Source of the DNA: a virus | DNA: 26,277 nt | Reading direction: 5' to 3' (one strand) | Virus record (IMG/VR): IMGVR_UViG_3300043464_000620 | Location: 1 to 26,277 of that record | In this document: one piece after another, positions 1 through 26,277 of the stretch | Position numbering within the stretch: position 1 is the stretch's first letter | Layout: every line of letters starts with the position of its first letter | Made by a program: the position numbers and the translations under genes | The notes under the pieces: model-generated | Database searches by the model: none | Seen by the model: only the letters and a program-made list of their open reading frames with translations | Told to the model about the DNA's origin: nothing

Positions 1-2294
1 CCCAGTGGGCGGTGCCGGGTTTCCTTGGATGCCACGACGGGCTTGAGCAGGCCCTGCACGCCTGCGATGGTGACGGGCACGCCGACAGCAGCCCACTTGG
101 CAATGGGTGGTGATGGCGCGACGAACGAAACGGCCACGTCACCAGAGGCAGGGATGCGCTCACCGACGAGGCGAGCTTGGACAGGGAGGCCGCCTTGACG
201 ACCGGCGATTTCCATTGATGTCTGGCCGCCATTGCCCCGGTTGACGATTCGGCGCCCATCGGCTAGGGCAGTGGCGAGACGGGAGGCGAGCGCTTGGGTC
301 ATGGAATCGCCCCACTGCACGATGGGGCTGCCCTGGGCTGGGGCCGGGGCAGGCTGGGGGGCCGGGGCTGGTGCTGGCTGCGGCGCTGGGGCTGGCTGGG
401 GGGCCGGGGCTGGTGCTGGCTGCGGCGCTGGGGCTGGTGCAGGCGCTGGAGCCGGAGCCGGAGCGCCGCCGAACACAGGCACCCCACCGCGCCAGTCCAC
501 CGACAGGCCGCCGCTGGGAAGTTTTACCTTGAGCTGCCGGTCGATCAGGCTGAGCGGGCCGGATTGGATGACGGCAGCGCTGCGCATGGCCTGGACCTGG
601 CCGTTCACCTCCAGGCGAGGGAATGATTCGATGATTTGACTGGCCGGGTTGAATGCCCCCCAGGTGGCGGCGATGGTTTGGCCGCGAACGTTCCTGTAGG
701 TAACGGACGGCCCTGCCAGATTCACTGACAGCGGAGCAGCCAGCACAGCAGCACGGAACGCAGCGAAGGTGGCAAACTCAGCCGCCGATGCCACGTCCAT
801 GATCACGACGTTCTGTGCGCCAGAACTGTGGAGAACGTGCATGTCGGGGAACTCACCAGAGATCAGCTCCGACGCCCCCCAGGCGCGGATGGCGACGTAG
901 GTGGAGCCTTCCCTCAGGAAGTGCCAGCCGTTGGCCTGCACCGCCTCGTCGAGGCCCTTGGGCCAGCGAATCCAGGCCTGCTGGATCATCGGGCCCCGGT
1001 AGGTCTCCCACGTCCTGTCTGTGCGGCCCTTGAACGGATCGGTGACGGGGATGCTGAACAGCGAGATCAGCGTGGATTCGTGCTGCGCGTTCTGCTGGAA
1101 CGGTGAGCTGCGGCTGAGCCAGGCGTACTGGCCAGAGGCAGTGCGCCAGTACGGGTGGGTGCAGACAATCTCGGCCAGAGGCTTACTGGTCCTGAGCAGC
1201 ACCTGATGCCCGCAGCGTTCACTGAGGCCCCGGCCACGGGCTGGCACCGGGCTGTTGATGTTGGCGACGAAATTCCCTGAGCCGATGGCGTAGTCCTGAT
1301 GGCGGTAAACAGTGCGCTCGGTGTAGGCGGCATCACCACGGGCGAACTCGCCAAACCCTGCAGCGGATCCGCGCAGGCTGAACGGCAGGATCCCCTTGCC
1401 TGCCGCCAGGTCGGCCAGCACTGCAGGCGGTCGCCAGGCGGAAATTGCAGAGCAGACGGCATAGTGCCGCGATTCCTCGAACGAGTTGAGCGACGGAAAC
1501 CGCATCGGCGGGCGGTCGCTCACTGGCATCAGTTCAGCCCACCACAGCCAATGCACCGCCTTGAGGTGGGTGTTCAGGATCGTGTTGCGCTGCGGTTCGA
1601 TGTTGCGGTAGGGGCCAGGCCGGTTGTACGGGGCGATGGTGTTGCCGTGAAAGAAGTTCGCCGCCATGTCTGCAGCGTGATAGGTGAGCACGGCATCAGC
1701 AGCAGCCTTGAGTTCAGGGTCGGTTGTGCATGAATACAACGCCTGCAGCGGATACAGATGGACCGGCAGATAATTAGGGGAGAGGTGTTCGTTATAAGCC
1801 TTGTCGTAATAGCTGCGCAGCGTTGCAAGGATGCGTTGTTTCACCACAGCGCCAAACTCAGCACTCGTCATGCGGCGGCGGGTGATTGCGTCATACCATC
1901 CCGTCTCACTGGGCCAGAGCTGGGCGAACAGCGACGCGCCAACGTACTTGATCAAAAAGTGATTCTCGGTGCCATGGCTGAGCAGGCCGCTGACGGTTTT
2001 CAGCTTGGCCGCCAGCGTGGCCCGCTGCTCAGGTGTGAACCGATCCCAGTGTTTGCAGAGAATCCAGCCAGCGCCTGCAGGCATGAACGACTCGTTGAAC
2101 CGATACTGCGTGCTGGTCAGCAGCGCCATGAACCGGGCAACAGGCGCCGGATCAGCAGGGTTCAGCGTCAGCCGGGCCAGGGTATCTGCCCAACCAAACT
2201 TCTGCGCAGTCGGGCCGTTCGGTGGACTGCTGCCGAGCGTGACATTGCGATAAGTTGAGATCATCCACGCGGCGCGTGTTTCGATGGCGGACAT
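1..2294 (-). CDS. Lyase-like / SGNH-hydrolase multidomain protein, C-terminus cut by window edge
   Basis: ATG at 2294 opens a frame with no stop to base 1 (764 codons visible). Residues 1-300 are helix-rich with many Trp, Tyr and His, recalling the alpha/alpha toroid of heparinase II/III or alginate lyases. Residues about 305-605 look beta-rich and contain TVYRHQDYAIGSG, reminiscent of the post-toroid part of such lyases. Residues 611-654 are a Pro-Ala-Gln linker. From 657 an SGNH/GDSL hydrolase begins: block I is WGDSM with Ser664 as probable nucleophile, and block II is RGNGGQTS (686-693), followed by an IPASG segment that I recall from phage/prophage SGNH proteins. Block III and the catalytic Asp/His lie beyond the edge. 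Probable role: a virion-associated enzyme that cleaves and deacetylates host surface polysaccharide. The SGNH call is strong; the lyase call is inference. No Shine-Dalgarno is evident before the start. Confidence 0.85.
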   Translation of the reverse strand, partial: MSAIETRAAWMISTYRNVTLGSSPPNGPTAQKFGWADTLARLTLNPADPAPVARFMALLTSTQYRFNESFMPAGAGWILCKHWDRFTPEQRATLAAKLKTVSGLLSHGTENHFLIKYVGASLFAQLWPSETGWYDAITRRRMTSAEFGAVVKQRILATLRSYYDKAYNEHLSPNYLPVHLYPLQALYSCTTDPELKAAADAVLTYHAADMAANFFHGNTIAPYNRPGPYRNIEPQRNTILNTHLKAVHWLWWAELMPVSDRPPMRFPSLNSFEESRHYAVCSAISAWRPPAVLADLAAGKGILPFSLRGSAAGFGEFARGDAAYTERTVYRHQDYAIGSGNFVANINSPVPARGRGLSERCGHQVLLRTSKPLAEIVCTHPYWRTASGQYAWLSRSSPFQQNAQHESTLISLFSIPVTDPFKGRTDRTWETYRGPMIQQAWIRWPKGLDEAVQANGWHFLREGSTYVAIRAWGASELISGEFPDMHVLHSSGAQNVVIMDVASAAEFATFAAFRAAVLAAPLSVNLAGPSVTYRNVRGQTIAATWGAFNPASQIIESFPRLEVNGQVQAMRSAAVIQSGPLSLIDRQLKVKLPSGGLSVDWRGGVPVFGGAPAPAPAPAPAPAPQPAPAPAPQPAPAPQPAPAPAPQPAPAPAQGSPIVQWGDSMTQALASRLATALADGRRIVNRGNGGQTSMEIAGRQGGLPVQARLVGERIPASGDVAVSFVAPSPPIAKWAAVGVPVTIAGVQGLLKPVVASKETRHRPL
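352..435 (-). repeat. Two perfect 42-bp tandem copies coding the Pro-Ala-Gln linker
   Basis: Bases 352-393 and 394-435 are identical. Each copy encodes 14 residues of alternating Ala-Pro with Gln, inside the linker between the lyase-like and SGNH regions. The unit length is a multiple of three, so gain or loss of copies changes linker length without a frameshift. The very GC-rich repeat also explains the long shadow reading frames on the opposite strand here. Confidence 0.93.
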
Positions 2295-9750: not shown

Positions 9751-12465
9751 CTACTGCTGCTCCAGGGCGGAAAGGCGAGCTTCAAGGGCTTCAATTTGCG
9801 CACGCTGCTCTTGCACTACGTTGACAAGGTGGACAACGTAGCGGTCGTATTGCACGCCATCAGGCGCTCCTTCTGCATTGTGATGCACAAGACGAGGATC
9901 AATCTCTTCCACTTCCTCGGCAATAAAACCCCAGTAACTATTTTCTTTTGGATCGCCCTCGCAAATAGAGCGATACCACACGGGCCTCGTCCCATAGACG
10001 ATTTCCTTGCTCTGTTCTAGGTTGGCGGTTTCTACGTCTGTCTTGTAACGAATGGAGGAAGTAGAGCGCTGGATGCGACCGCCTGAAGTGAGAAAGGCAT
10101 TGGCCGCAGATGCTGTTGTGTCAGTGATCGTCGTAAGTAGGAACGTGTTGGAAGCCGCGTTCAAATAGAGGGCGCCATTGCTTGTTGAAATTTCTGTAGT
10201 GGCAGCAAACAGCATTCGTCGCCCGCCCGCCGACTGGGAATTACCAAAGTCAAGACGGAACATCTCCACTCCGCTTGCCGCAATCGCAGGCGTATTAGCA
10301 GCAGCCCTGAACATGCCAGTATCTGTGTCGTTCTGCCAAACGAACGACGGCAGTGCAGCAGTGTCAGCGCCTACGCCATAGAAACGACTGTTCGTATTGG
10401 TTGACTGATCCAATACTTGCACCACGGCATCTTGCGTGTTGGTTGCAGTGATGGTTCCGCTGGGCACAAATGCAACGGCAGAAGCAGTTTGCCCCACTGC
10501 AGCAGTGCTCAAGTCAATTTCATTCCAAGCGCTACCGTCGCTCAGGATCAAGTCGGGAGGCGCAAGCGCAACGCCAGGGGCGGGGGAAGTGCCGGTGCCG
10601 CCGCTTGATACCACAACATAGAAACCATTGTTTTGATCAGAAGCTGCAGGCAGGCCGCTGCCCACGATCAAGCCAATAGCATCACCCTGATCTGTGACGG
10701 TTGCGACTGTGTTATTGGCGGCGTTGTAAGTACCAGCAAAGATAATGCCTCCAACGCTGATACCAATGGGCTGCCAGACATTGCCGTCCCACATAAAGAA
10801 GCTGCGCTCTAGCGGGTTGAAGAAAAGCTGGCCGGTGTATTCAGCCTGTGGAGCCGTGTTTGCAATTTGAGCAGTGGAATAGTCAGCTAGTTTTGCGCCG
10901 TTGACAGAATCATCGGCAAAGCGTTCTGTCGGGAACTCGCCAGTCTCAATTTGGGAGGCATTAAGTGCTGGAATGTCGAGAGTGGTAAGGCCAGTCGCAG
11001 CAGAAATATGGCCTTGGCTGTCAAAAGTGAAACCATTGATGGTCGTCCCAGAAACGCTATTAACGTGGTTAATGACGCCGCTGGTTACGCTTAAGCCAGT
11101 ACCAGGGCTCACTGCTCCAACCGTGCCGCTAGTCGCCAGAGGCAGGTCACTAGCCACAAGCGCACGGAACGTAGGGGCTACGCCACTGCCGCTAGTCGGC
11201 CCTGCCCAGACAGTGTTAGCAGACTGCGCACTGCTGCTGACAGTGATGGTGGAACTGAAATTATCTGGATACGATGGGGAGAAGCTGAGGGGAGTGCTGC
11301 CAGAAAAAGCAAGCGTGGCAATTCCACTGAGGCGCTGCCAAGCAGAGCCAGTCCACGTATATTCAAGGCCCGTGTTGGTATTGACATGTTGCTGACCAAT
11401 GAACGCACCACTGGCGACAGGCGCTGCAGTGCCAACTACAACGGCAGAGTTGTCATTGAGCTTGTCAGCCGTTACGGCATTATCTCCAAGCTTTGCTACA
11501 GTAACTGCCCCGTCCGCAATCTTGGCGGAACTAACCACGCCGCTTGCAATCGTGGCAGCAAACGTGCCACTACCAGTGCCAGTTACGTCGCCCGTCAGCG
11601 TGATCGTTTGATCGCCCGTGTTCGTGCCAGTGCTGGTGCCAGCAAACGTGCTGCCATTTGTCCATGTGCCGTTGGCAGTGGCAAGCGTGCCCAGGCCGAG
11701 CGTTGCACGCTGCGTAGTGGCGTCTGCGTCGTCCAGCAAGGCCCTTCCCGCAGCCGTGCAGGCAATCTCTTCAATGGTGCCGCTAGTGGCCGAGCTACGC
11801 CCCAGCAGGCGGTCCCCAGAGGACACTGCTTGAATGCGGTCGTAGTTGACAGTGTTAGCAGCCAGGCGAGTGCCAGTGATTGTGCCAGTGGCAATGTTGC
11901 CAGCCAAGATCGTGCCGCTTGCAATTTGCGCAGTCGTGATCGTGCCGCTTGCAATCTTCGCGGCAGACACACTGCCATCGGCATAGGCAGCAGTGTTCAA
12001 GCCAGAAGAAACAATTTGAGCCGTGGTAATCGTGCCACTTGCAATCTTCGCCGCACTGATCGACCCATCGCTAATCCCTGAAGCGCCAAGCACTACTTGC
12101 TGGTAGCTCGTCCCATTGAAAACTTGCAGGTTGCCAGTGGAGCTATTGAAAAAGCCTCTCCCTTCAAAGTTATCCCCGCTAGGCGCCGTGGTCTGCACGG
12201 CAATGGAACTGTCGTTTGCCAGCTTTGCTGCCGTAATGGCATCATCGGCAATGGAGGCAGTGCCGAGCTTGGTAGTGCTGTTCTGGTTGAACAGGCCAAG
12301 GTTGAGAGTGCCGCTAGGGACCAATGCCACGCCAGCAGCAACCAGCTCGCTAACAGTGGTCTTCTTGGTTTGTGACGCCGAAACATCAACAACCGCCAAT
12401 AAGTCTCCAGATGCTATTGCTGCTAATGGCAGCGCTGGCAGTTGTGAGATTCTTTGGTCAGCCAA
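9751..12465 (-). CDS. Long tail fibre with C-terminal S74 intramolecular chaperone, 904 aa
   Basis: The start is TTG at 12465 with a good Shine-Dalgarno, GAGAGG at 12479-12474, 8 nt upstream. The N-terminus (MADQRISQLPALPLAAIASGDLLAVVDVS) is a common fibre head. Residues 134-205 carry SAAKIASGTITTAQI repeats. A module ending in a Trp/Tyr-Gln motif occurs three times (about 75-124, 325-377, 520-565). The C-terminus is a peptidase S74 chaperone: SSIRYKTDV, then YWGFIAEEVEEIDPRLV and a coiled-coil end. Aligned to endosialidase (SDERLK), the catalytic pair is Ser803/Lys808 and cleavage would release about 100 residues after trimer folding. The Asp usual after the serine is Ser804. This fibre probably contacts the host; the receptor is unknown. 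Confidence 0.92.
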   Translation of the reverse strand: MADQRISQLPALPLAAIASGDLLAVVDVSASQTKKTTVSELVAAGVALVPSGTLNLGLFNQNSTTKLGTASIADDAITAAKLANDSSIAVQTTAPSGDNFEGRGFFNSSTGNLQVFNGTSYQQVVLGASGISDGSISAAKIASGTITTAQIVSSGLNTAAYADGSVSAAKIASGTITTAQIASGTILAGNIATGTITGTRLAANTVNYDRIQAVSSGDRLLGRSSATSGTIEEIACTAAGRALLDDADATTQRATLGLGTLATANGTWTNGSTFAGTSTGTNTGDQTITLTGDVTGTGSGTFAATIASGVVSSAKIADGAVTVAKLGDNAVTADKLNDNSAVVVGTAAPVASGAFIGQQHVNTNTGLEYTWTGSAWQRLSGIATLAFSGSTPLSFSPSYPDNFSSTITVSSSAQSANTVWAGPTSGSGVAPTFRALVASDLPLATSGTVGAVSPGTGLSVTSGVINHVNSVSGTTINGFTFDSQGHISAATGLTTLDIPALNASQIETGEFPTERFADDSVNGAKLADYSTAQIANTAPQAEYTGQLFFNPLERSFFMWDGNVWQPIGISVGGIIFAGTYNAANNTVATVTDQGDAIGLIVGSGLPAASDQNNGFYVVVSSGGTGTSPAPGVALAPPDLILSDGSAWNEIDLSTAAVGQTASAVAFVPSGTITATNTQDAVVQVLDQSTNTNSRFYGVGADTAALPSFVWQNDTDTGMFRAAANTPAIAASGVEMFRLDFGNSQSAGGRRMLFAATTEISTSNGALYLNAASNTFLLTTITDTTASAANAFLTSGGRIQRSTSSIRYKTDVETANLEQSKEIVYGTRPVWYRSICEGDPKENSYWGFIAEEVEEIDPRLVHHNAEGAPDGVQYDRYVVHLVNVVQEQRAQIEALEARLSALEQQ
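11851..12066 (-). repeat. Degenerate 30-residue repeats in the tail fibre (SAAKIASGTITTAQI)
   Basis: Two near-identical blocks, residues 134-151 (GSISAAKIASGTITTAQI) and 164-181 (GSVSAAKIASGTITTAQI), are spaced by 30 residues and followed by partial units (IASGTILAGNIATGTITGTRLAANT). Such repeats usually form a trimeric beta-structured shaft. Confidence 0.85.
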
Positions 12466-23592: not shown

Positions 23593-24117
23593 TCAACGAC
23601 CTCTCAGCAGGCTATTGCCAATGCTTTGTATTGCTTCGTCTATGTCTGCAAGCGTTGGCTCCGTCCATGGTCTAGCGGGATTAGCCGTGCCACCACGCCC
23701 AACGTAGCCATCATGAACCCCCCCGGCATGAGGCGCTGTCCATTGAAATTCCTCTGCATTCCTGTCTGTGCGCACTCGCTGCTTGCTCTGCAAAAGCTCT
23801 CCAGTGTCAACGACATTCCTCGGTTCGCTCACTATCTCTCCATTCTTCCTGCGAGTGAACTGGTCAGGCCCTTTCCAGTCCCATTGCACATTGGACAGTT
23901 GTTGGTCAAAGTCCGCATCAGCCCAATCCATTGCCGCTTCAAAAATGCGCCCATTGATGCCATACAGTCTGCGCGTTGGCAGCCCTTCCGTCTCCCTCAC
24001 TCGGATGCCAGCAAAGCGTTGCAGGCGACGATCTAAGCCGCCTAGACCATCCAGAAGTCTCTGAATGGCGCTGTCCGCTTCAAACCTATTGCTTTCAAAA
24101 CGGACGGTGTAGCTCAT
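23593..24117 (-). CDS. HK97 gp10-like / neck-type structural protein, 174 aa
   Basis: ATG at 24117, 28 bp after the frameshift product's stop; the end is coupled to the tape measure (TGA-TC-ATG). The N-terminal half is amphipathic (RFEADSAIQRLLDGLGGLDRRLQRFAG). The second half has VVDTGELLQSKQRV, FQWTAPHAGGVHDGYV and NPARPWTEPTL, which echo the conserved TG-x-L...S and terminal P-x-R-P-F/W of HK97 gp10/neck-completion proteins. Its position between chaperone and tape measure is unusual for a neck protein, so a tail-completion or tube-cap role is equally possible. Family assignment is tentative. Confidence 0.7.
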   Translation of the reverse strand: MSYTVRFESNRFEADSAIQRLLDGLGGLDRRLQRFAGIRVRETEGLPTRRLYGINGRIFEAAMDWADADFDQQLSNVQWDWKGPDQFTRRKNGEIVSEPRNVVDTGELLQSKQRVRTDRNAEEFQWTAPHAGGVHDGYVGRGGTANPARPWTEPTLADIDEAIQSIGNSLLRGR

Positions 24118-24145: not shown

Positions 24146-24562
24146 CTAAACAAGTTCAGCACCAAGAATGCCTACAATGGCAGGCGGCAGCTTCTCGTTC
24201 TTCAGTGCCCATTGCATTGCCGCAATGGTAGTGTCACTCAACCCATTGTTCGTCTTGGGCTTCTCATAGGGGAGGAAAGATTCAACGGTCACGCTGCTTT
24301 TCTTTCCTCCTAGCGCCCCGTAAACGAGACAGGCCAATTTAGCCGTAGTCACACTATCGGCATTGGCTTCATGCTGCCTCTGCTGAATGGACGTTTCCAG
24401 CAGCACTCTCAAAAGCTTGAGCGGAAGTCTTGCAAAGTTTGCGGCATGGAACAATGGATCGGGGATGTTCAGGCAAGCAATGCGTGCATAAAGACTTCCC
24501 CAGTCCGTTATCGCGGCAAGCGTCAACTCACACGACTCTTCTAAGCGAGACAGCCCTTTTAC
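24146..24562 (-). CDS. Downstream (T) part of the tail assembly chaperone, read by -1 frameshift
   Basis: The frame is open from the slippery site through 24146. After slip at C CCA AAG, reading continues VKGLSRLEESCE and then TLAAITDWGSLYARIACLNI, adding 138 residues to the 171-residue upstream part (309 in total). A TTG at 24526 inside this frame is the only nearby alternative start, with no convincing Shine-Dalgarno. Sequence features are helical (LPLKLLRVLLETSIQQRQHEANADSVTTAKLACLVYG, TTIAAMQWALKNEKLPPAIVGIL). In lambda and many siphophages the G/GT pair binds the tape measure during tail assembly, and only the extended form recruits tube subunits. Role follows from position and slippery site. 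Confidence 0.82.
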   Translation of the reverse strand, partial: VKGLSRLEESCELTLAAITDWGSLYARIACLNIPDPLFHAANFARLPLKLLRVLLETSIQQRQHEANADSVTTAKLACLVYGALGGKKSSVTVESFLPYEKPKTNNGLSDTTIAAMQWALKNEKLPPAIVGILGAELV

Positions 24563-25074
24563 TTTGGGGAGTCGTCACCTTCTTCTTCCGCAGCAGGACG
24601 CACGTCATCTTCATCCCGCATGAATTGCTCAATCTTTTGCATCAATGGGATGGGCAGTTTTTTGGTGTCATCAACAGTCCACTCGCTAGTAGATTGCCAT
24701 TTCTTACCTTCTAACACTTCCCCCCTGTTCTTCATGAACATCGTCACCAGTTCCTCTGTCTGATCCTTGTTAGTGAGGGAATGAGCCATCACTGTATCAA
24801 TTTCTGCTTCAAAACCAGCAAAGAACTCCGCCCTTTCAGCGCCAGGCATTTCAAACATTGCAAATGCCTCTTCTTCGGCAATGCCTTTCTCTTTTGCAAT
24901 CTTTCGCGCAAGGCGAATAAGCTCCAACGTAAAACGCGCCTGTTTCTTGCCTTGCGACTCACGCAACCACGCTTCTTCAGTTAGCCAACTGCCATAGCTG
25001 CGAATACGCATCTTTTCGCCAAGCTCGCAATATGACGGGCTGCTCAGTAAGAAAAAGTCTGAATAGCGACTCAT
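24559..25074 (-). CDS. Tail assembly chaperone, upstream (G) part, 171 aa
   Basis: ATG at 25074 overlaps the 77-aa gene's stop (ATGA). The protein is helix-rich and charged (LRESQGKKQARFTLELIRLARKIAKEKGIAEEEAFAMFEM), continues with EELVTMFMKNRGEVLEGKKW and a segment ending MQKIEQFMRDEDDV, and terminates in a very acidic EEEGDDSPK. Length, acidic end and position between tube and tape measure fit the G-type tail chaperone. The stop TAA at 24561-24559 directly follows a C CCA AAG slippery site, giving a minor fusion with the downstream frame. As expected for this pair, neither part resembles an enzyme. Confidence 0.82.
   Translation of the reverse strand: MSRYSDFFLLSSPSYCELGEKMRIRSYGSWLTEEAWLRESQGKKQARFTLELIRLARKIAKEKGIAEEEAFAMFEMPGAERAEFFAGFEAEIDTVMAHSLTNKDQTEELVTMFMKNRGEVLEGKKWQSTSEWTVDDTKKLPIPLMQKIEQFMRDEDDVRPAAEEEGDDSPK
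24562..24568 (-). promoter_or_regulatory. Programmed -1 frameshift slippery heptamer C CCA AAG
   Basis: The minus strand reads C CCA AAG and then TAA in the 171-aa frame. A slip of both tRNAs back by one base gives CCC AAA, then GTA AAA GGG in the open downstream frame. The form X XXY YYZ is fully satisfied, and the stop is immediately 3' of the site. This is the arrangement of the conserved G/GT frameshift of tailed phages. I see no obvious stimulatory stem-loop or upstream Shine-Dalgarno-like enhancer by eye. Confidence 0.85.
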
Positions 25075-25304
25075 GGACAGCGATCAAGAAGTAGGGGAAG
25101 TCTAGCGTTCACAATTCTTGTAGGCATAGGCTTTTCTACGGCCTTAGCGGGCAGCTCAATGGCCAAAACTTTTGTCTTTGCATCAATCTCGCAAATAGCT
25201 GGCGAACCAGGCAAGAAGCAGGCAAGCCCAACGTTCAACATGCCATCCTCAAACGCGCAGTCAAACAACCACACTTTGCCGCAATTGCTTTTTAGTAGCT
25301 TCAT
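25071..25304 (-). CDS. Hypothetical 77-aa protein in the tail operon
   Basis: ATG at 25304 shares its A with the stop of the 136-aa gene (TAATG), and the end overlaps the chaperone start (ATGA). The chain MKLLKSNCGKVWLFDCAFEDG, LNVGLACFLPGSPAICEIDAKTKVLAIELPAKAVEKPMPT is strand-like, with four cysteines (8, 16, 29 and 38) and no obvious domain. It has no signal peptide. The tight coupling on both sides supports a real gene that is translated with the tail operon. I do not recognise the family. The four cysteines might bind a metal, but they are not in a classical zinc-finger spacing. Confidence 0.75.
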   Translation of the reverse strand: MKLLKSNCGKVWLFDCAFEDGMLNVGLACFLPGSPAICEIDAKTKVLAIELPAKAVEKPMPTRIVNARLPLLLDRCP

Positions 25305-25714
25305 TAGGGGCTGGTGATCAATCGAGCAATCTCCACGTCTGGAATAGTAATGCGATATTGACCGTAAGTAGTGTCGGTTTCAGGCTGAGGCGACAAACTA
25401 GCGTCAGGGAATCGCCTGCAAATGCGGTCAGCAGCCAACGTAAGTGCTTGAGAATTGGTGCTGTAGTCCACCAATGTAACGGTCCACAGCTTTCGCTGTT
25501 GCAAGATGCCCACGCCGGAACGGGGATTCAGCCTGGGAAACTCATAAATGTTCACCTCTAGCCCACTCACCTTCCATTCAGGAGGCACACCACTTCGCCC
25601 TGTCACGTAAATGGCTGGCACTTGCTGACCATCAGGCAGCGTATAACTGCCAATCAAGTCGGGCTGCATCGTCAGCAGCGTGGTAATAATGTCGCGGAGT
25701 TGAGCGATGTTCAC
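25304..25714 (-). CDS. Tail terminator / tail-completion-like protein, 136 aa
   Basis: GTG start at 25714, with a GGGGAGG Shine-Dalgarno at 25730-25724, 9 nt upstream, that is also the 3' arm of the terminator before it. Features: an N-terminal helix (MNIAQLRDIITTLLTMQPDLIG), strands (QQVPAIYVTG, GLEVNIYEFPRLNP), and a conserved-looking block LWTVTLVDYSTNSQALTLAADRICRRFPD, ending YGQYRITIPDVEIARLI. This resembles tail-terminator or tail-completion (gpU/gp17-like) alpha-beta proteins, in which a helix packs on a small sheet. In lambda the terminator gene precedes the tube gene; here it follows. Call by pattern and context, not by a named profile. Confidence 0.65.
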   Translation of the reverse strand: MNIAQLRDIITTLLTMQPDLIGSYTLPDGQQVPAIYVTGRSGVPPEWKVSGLEVNIYEFPRLNPRSGVGILQQRKLWTVTLVDYSTNSQALTLAADRICRRFPDASLSPQPETDTTYGQYRITIPDVEIARLITSP

Positions 25715-25717
25715 AAT

Positions 25718-25741
25718 AAAAAACCTCCCCGTAAGGAGAGG
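25718..25741 (-). terminator. Rho-independent terminator after the tube gene, overlapping the next gene's RBS
   Basis: On the minus strand ggagagg is complemented as CCTCTCC, then TTAC loop, then GGGGAGG, a 7-bp stem with one G-U pair, followed by six T residues (25723-25718). It lies 24 bp after the tube-like gene's stop. Its GGGGAGG arm is the Shine-Dalgarno for the GTG at 25714. The hairpin could attenuate read-through and limit translation of the tail operon, giving higher expression of the tube subunit. Confidence 0.75.
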
Positions 25742-25765
25742 CTAACAGAGCTATGGGAGAGAAGG

Positions 25766-26277
25766 TCAGTTGGGGGCAACAGGAATGATGCTGCCAGAGC
25801 TGGTGGCACTCTGATGGATGCCAATGCGGCTGCGGCTAACGAGATCAAAGGTGACTTCCACAAGGTTGTCAGCAGGGTAGCTCTCGTTGTAGTTCATCAC
25901 GGCAGCGCAGAAAGCCACACGGTCGTAATAGAAAGTGGTGCCACTCACGCCAAGCTGCTTATTGATTTCGACATACACCTCATGGGTTTTGTCGTAGCGT
26001 GAAGCGCTAATCACTTGGAACGCTTCATCAAAGCTGTTGGGCAGGAAAACTGTGCCATCAACGTCCTTCTGGAAGTAGGAGGTAATAGAGGCAGTGGCTT
26101 GACTAGTGACGATCACGCTGTCAGCGAAACCGCCGCCGCCAAGCAGGTAAAACTCTTGGTTGCCATCGTTGAAGGCCACAGAAGCCGTGGTGGCAGCCTG
26201 CAGGGTGAAGAGGGTGGGAGCCCCGCTCACGGTGAACGTAGCGCCGCTCTGCGTGATCACAGGACGACCAGAGGCCA
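25766..26277 (-). CDS. Major tail-tube-like protein, 5' end at window edge
   Basis: The frame is open to the window edge. The first full in-window start is GTG at 26260, but the frame continues upstream as ASGRPVITQSGATF, and the last two bases (26277-26276) read TG in frame, so an ATG one base outside the window is likely (about 170 aa). It is beta-rich: TLFTLQAATTASVAFNDGNQEFYLLGGGG, FADSVIVTSQATASITSYFQKD, VFLPNSFDEAFQVISASRYDKTHEVYVEI, and NLVEVTFDLVSRSRIGIHQS. The combination of early position, beta-barrel pattern, a terminator immediately downstream and no homologue to sheath suggests the major tail (tube) protein. Not confirmed by a profile. Confidence 0.72.
   Translation of the reverse strand, partial: ASGRPVITQSGATFTVSGAPTLFTLQAATTASVAFNDGNQEFYLLGGGGFADSVIVTSQATASITSYFQKDVDGTVFLPNSFDEAFQVISASRYDKTHEVYVEINKQLGVSGTTFYYDRVAFCAAVMNYNESYPADNLVEVTFDLVSRSRIGIHQSATSSGSIIPVAPN

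Follow-up and report, generated by a model that had tools for sequence, protein, structure and literature searches.

Tail genes at the locus

The window, by which we mean the whole 26,277-base virus record analysed here, carries a siphovirus tail module on its minus strand, in which two overlapping frames, G and T, lie ahead of the tape measure gene and are separated from it by a single gene (Table 1). The preliminary description had read the end of the G frame as a -1 slippery heptamer with a stop codon directly behind it, the -1 frame running open into a next gene that has no strong start of its own, and our analysis agrees with it on each of these features, down to the coordinates. The G frame ends GAC TCC CCA AAG TAA, in which C CCA AAG lies in frame. 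Re-pairing one base back would place the two codons on CCC AAA, and reading would continue with GTA AAA GGG (V K G) through 138 open codons (24562..24149), giving a predicted fusion of 171 + 138 = 309 aa with SPK-VKG at the junction. On the 5' side, the -1 frame is closed four codons before the junction (*RLPK), and the first possible start in the T frame is a TTG at 24526, 12 codons past it. By sequence, the locus encodes a short product of 171 aa and a -1 extended product of 309 aa with a common N-terminus, an arrangement that is the same in all 92 distinct junctions of the family described below.

Table 1. Features of the chaperone-like gene pair and its neighbours in the window
Feature	Position	Strand	Details
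Tape measure protein, 1534 aa	18992..23596	-	Pfam TMP_3, E 1.4e-23; PHROG 2335, E 5.2e-35
174-aa gene between T frame and tape measure gene	23593..24117	-	PHROG 37577 (no assigned function), E 2.7e-6; VHDGY...PARPWTEP motif
T-like frame	24146..24562	-	138 codons plus stop; predicted C-terminal part of the 309-aa fusion
TAA stop of G frame	24559..24561	-	Abuts heptamer; same abutment in 56/92 junctions
-1 slippery heptamer C CCA AAG	24562..24568	-	-1 heptamer in 92/92 junctions
G-like frame	24559..25074	-	ATG start, 171 aa; putative tail assembly chaperone, short product
Purine-rich GAAGAAGAAGG stretch	24569..24591	-	Upstream of heptamer; possible weak Shine-Dalgarno-like stimulator

The 174-aa gene has no Pfam match. 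In the window and in the related loci L004 (1157-1588), L015, L013 and L044, the space between T and the tape measure gene is taken by a gene whose product has about 143-174 aa and carries a VHDGY...PARP(F/W)TE-like motif; such a gene is missing there in Synechococcus phage S-CBS4 and in L171. Its placement is unusual, and the motif recalls HK97 gp10-like tail-completion proteins. Upstream of G, where a lambda-like tail tube gene would be sought, the genes at 25071-26260 gave no Pfam or PHROG match.

Features of three other proteins in the window were noted by eye. The tape measure protein contains a stretch, GRTSGDFTNRGHRTPNHMLNAMDMGF...GHATHLHIPTPGG, that resembles an inserted metallopeptidase-type domain, and the 1150-aa tape measure protein of L004 is without it. 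At 3-2294 (minus strand), a protein that runs off the window has a linker of proline-alanine repeats that leads into an SGNH-hydrolase-like stretch (IVQWGDSMTQ). A fibre-like protein at 9751-12465 (minus strand) ends in a C-terminus like an endosialidase-type intramolecular chaperone domain (SSIRYKTDVETA...WGFIAEEVEEI).

Profile libraries gave no confident match for the G and T proteins themselves. AlphaFold2 predicts for G (mean pLDDT 80.9) a mainly helical core and a disordered acidic C-terminal tail at residues 159-171, and the T part is predicted to be all-helical. Across the family, for which the G alignment holds 89 homologues, the Pfam profile Phage_tail_T (the lambda gpT family) gave weak, sub-threshold matches in 13 of 88 T proteins (best E 0.0027) and Phage_TAC_3 in 2 of 89 G proteins (best E 0.014), also weak and sub-threshold; PHROG 337, 'tail protein', matched 10 of the 88 T proteins weakly. 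Profile comparison with lambda G and T gave no significant match to the window family, PDB sequence searches with G and T returned nothing usable, and a PDB fold search found no confident match of G to a solved structure. A fold search among viral models returned mostly unnamed matches, those of G and T including the neighbouring accessions A0A346A5Z9 and A0A346A600, which suggests that these two are a gene pair in one phage.

A -1 heptamer conserved across the family

We gathered relatives by protein similarity alone, and the heptamer played no part in the searches. Homologues of both parts came from IMG/VR contigs, from S-CBS4 and from one distant bacterial copy (L171, in a metagenome-assembled genome), and both parts were present in 162 loci that reduce to 92 distinct junction sequences. 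The few loci with one part only hold part of the pair, mostly by ending inside it. The G and T of the window were matched at 100% identity in two contigs from other samples.

In all 92 distinct junctions, T lies in the -1 frame relative to G, and the overlap contains an in-frame X XXY YYZ heptamer with Y = A. The background, counted as in-frame X XXY YYZ (Y = A or T) inside the same genes, is 0.22% of codons in the first gene and 0.41% in the second, so that at least one heptamer per overlap is expected by chance in about 4% of loci, against the 92 of 92 observed. Five types occur: AAAAAAC (36), CCCAAAG (26), AAAAAAA (19), CCCAAAA (10) and AAAAAAG (1). Among distinct sequences, those nearest to the window (L009, L010, L011, L015, L004 and L098) all have C CCA AAG with a TAA or TAG immediately behind it, and L171, the single distant copy from the bacterial genome search, also has an A AAA AAA site.

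The pattern of change shows that slippage potential is conserved beyond what protein coding requires. The amino acid encoded just ahead of the slip differs between loci (S, G, A, D or V among CCCAAAG sites; A, G, E, P, R or S among AAAAAAC sites), and that codon always ends in the base, C or A, with which the heptamer begins. A maximum-likelihood tree built from G plus T has at least six changes of heptamer type with no loss of slippage potential, and at least five changes in the abutment of the stop. The preliminary description had named loss of the heptamer with retention of the frames as the result that would count against it; we looked for such a case and saw none, as a different -1 heptamer takes the place of CCCAAAG wherever the latter is absent. 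On this comparative evidence, a -1 programmed frameshift joining the two frames is strongly supported. Slippage itself at C CCA AAG, and its rate, are inferred.

Alternative readings of the second frame

The T frame might instead be a separate gene, begun at the TTG at 24526 or at a non-standard codon and translated, without any frameshift, by coupling to the end of G. Phages often couple translation around stop codons, the window does have its TTG 12 codons into the frame, and ahead of the conserved T-D-W motif 21 of 91 loci have a GTG or TTG and 2 have an ATG. Against this, 68 of the 91 loci have no ATG, GTG or TTG between the upstream stop and that motif, the starts that do exist differ in position between loci, and the T frame is already conserved 5' of the TTG. 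From heptamer to motif, the T frame is under purifying selection, with pN/pS of 0.34 in the group of the window's length and 0.15 and 0.46 in two other length groups, compared with 1.14, 1.06 and 0.90 when the same stretch is read in the G frame; sequence pairs were pooled and are non-independent, so these ratios are descriptive. Coupling would also give no reason for an ever-present in-frame heptamer. Because a start is not conserved and most relatives are without one, initiation of the second frame at its TTG, which the preliminary description had named as a refuting outcome, is unlikely; we reject an independent start for most of the family and consider a separate gene very improbable overall. 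Read-through of the TAA is no alternative either, since the window's G frame reaches another stop after 5 codons (family median 7). Transcriptional slippage, in which the T part would be reached through mRNA indels rather than ribosomal frameshifting, is conceivable where relatives carry runs of 6-7 A (AAAAAAC, AAAAAAA). However, the window and about 40% of the junctions have CCCAAAG or CCCAAAA, in which no base is repeated for long, and the tandem-slip pattern is kept across both kinds of heptamer in one gene family. We judge polymerase slippage unlikely at CCCAAAG and, as an account of the family, give it almost no credence.

A different question is what the -1 products do. The frames could be expressed by -1 slippage and serve a tail role other than that of a chaperone, as might be argued from their lack of significant homology to any named chaperone family. 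Several features speak against this: the pair sits before the tape measure gene, it has the G/GT -1 architecture, G has an acidic flexible tail followed by a helical T part, and the weak Phage_tail_T and Phage_TAC_3 matches point to the chaperones. We therefore regard a non-chaperone role as improbable, if somewhat less so than a separate T gene. The preliminary description had identified the frames as tail chaperones outright; position and G/GT architecture support that identification well, and direct homology to Phage_tail_T and Phage_TAC_3 is sub-threshold, so we propose the chaperone role from architecture and from position before the tape measure gene. With high confidence, we interpret the two frames as G and T of a tail assembly chaperone gene of the lambda type, joined by a -1 slip. 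Points that weigh against this reading are the lack of a significant match to lambda G or T or in the PDB, the unremarkable stimulator signals of the window described below, and the fact that the 174-aa gene, rather than T, is the immediate neighbour of the tape measure gene.

A working model and the signals around the slip site

As a G/GT chaperone gene, the locus would be read as follows. Most ribosomes would terminate at the TAA and release the 171-aa G protein, and a minority would slip one base back, the tRNAs for CCA and AAG re-pairing on CCC AAA, and would go on to complete the 309-aa fusion of G and T. On the lambda pattern, G would be the protein that coats the tape measure, and the fusion would bring in tail-tube subunits through its T part, so that the rate of slippage would set the G:GT ratio.

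Elements that could stimulate the slip differ across the family. A Shine-Dalgarno-like signal is enriched about 10-14 nt 5' of the heptamer, and this upstream element is stronger than synonymous recodings in 30 of 35 representatives (Wilcoxon p 2.5e-7). For the window itself, GAAGAAGAAGG (-6.9) is not stronger than synonymous recodings of the same stretch, and no RNA structure stands out 3' of the heptamer (z near 0). RNAalifold found only two pairs downstream of the heptamer in the CCCAAAG/CCCAAAA group. In the AAAAAAC clade, a stable stem-loop begins 8 nt past the heptamer (mean z about -2.5 against synonymous recoding), and a search of this stem for covariation or compensatory changes found none. 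Its arms, CGGCTTGC-GCAAGCCG (alignment columns 16-23 paired with 27-34), are present 8 nt 3' of A AAA AAC in most members of the clade, for example at L044 3013-3031.

C_CCA_AAG is highly shift-prone in E. coli (PMC5009743), so the slip site of the window may need little stimulation, by analogy with shiftiness figures that come from E. coli rather than from cyanobacterial ribosomes. In the same bacterium, A_AAA_AAG is much more shift-prone than A_AAA_AAC (PMC5009743).

The only unusual trait of the family is the stop that directly abuts the heptamer, and it is where something new might be found. It is found in 56 of 92 junctions, across three heptamer types, and the stop is TAA in 35 of 35 abutting AAAAAAC cases. 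One possibility is that the abutting stop takes an active part in the signal: while it occupies the A site, termination would be slow enough for the tRNAs in the E and P sites to slip back, and the level of release factor would tune the G:GT ratio. This would explain the use of sites such as A AAA AAC, the less shifty of the two in E. coli, as well as the persistence of abutment across three types; we offer the idea tentatively and think it rather improbable.

Comparison with known systems

The window pair compares closely with lambda gpG/gpGT in design. In both, two frames stand just before the tape measure gene, and a -1 slip, which is predicted for the window, leads into the second frame shortly before the first one ends, giving a short and a long product with a common N-terminus. 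The slip sites are G GGA AAG in lambda and C CCA AAG in the window, and the stop lies 15 nt past the slip site in lambda, whereas it follows the heptamer directly in the window. Unlike lambda, the window has an additional gene that separates T from the tape measure gene, and there is no detectable sequence similarity between the two pairs.

The closest named phage to the window family, whose window member is a freshwater phage, is the siphovirus S-CBS4, in which gp032 and gp033 are homologous to G (30% identity, E 3e-6) and T (27%, E 6e-11). S-CBS4 shares the -1 design, with T in the -1 frame and an A AAA AAA heptamer in the overlap; its heptamer lies 39 nt before the G stop rather than abutting it, and, unlike in the window, no gene separates T from the tape measure gene. 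In the S-CBS4 record (HQ698895 19779-20749; our loci L006 and L173), G runs from 19779 and T is open across A AAA AAA, whereas the public annotation gives two hypothetical proteins with late starts (gp033 from 20528) and misses the frameshift. Searches of the literature turned up no report of frameshifting in S-CBS4 or related phages.

Exchange of slip sites within a tail gene pair is familiar from viruses of other hosts, in which the same pair uses different -1 heptamers in different viruses (PMC5009743), a likeness that we draw from the description alone. The family-wide signal about 10-14 nt upstream also has a parallel in the Shine-Dalgarno-like element upstream of E. coli dnaX-type sites. 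The downstream hairpin of those sites has a counterpart in the stem-loop of the AAAAAAC clade, which is without covariation, and has none in the window sequence.

For a family that profile libraries miss and that is annotated as hypothetical in the only named phage found, these comparisons provide a likely function and a correct gene model. The roughly 90 distinct junctions, in which five heptamer types interchange while the -1 slip is kept, form a natural data set for the evolution of frameshift sites, and the same set could be useful for asking whether an adjacent stop aids slippage in phages related to a Synechococcus virus. Overall, the window and its relatives make up a new, cyanophage-related sequence family of probable G/GT-type chaperones within a kind of system that is already known from lambda.
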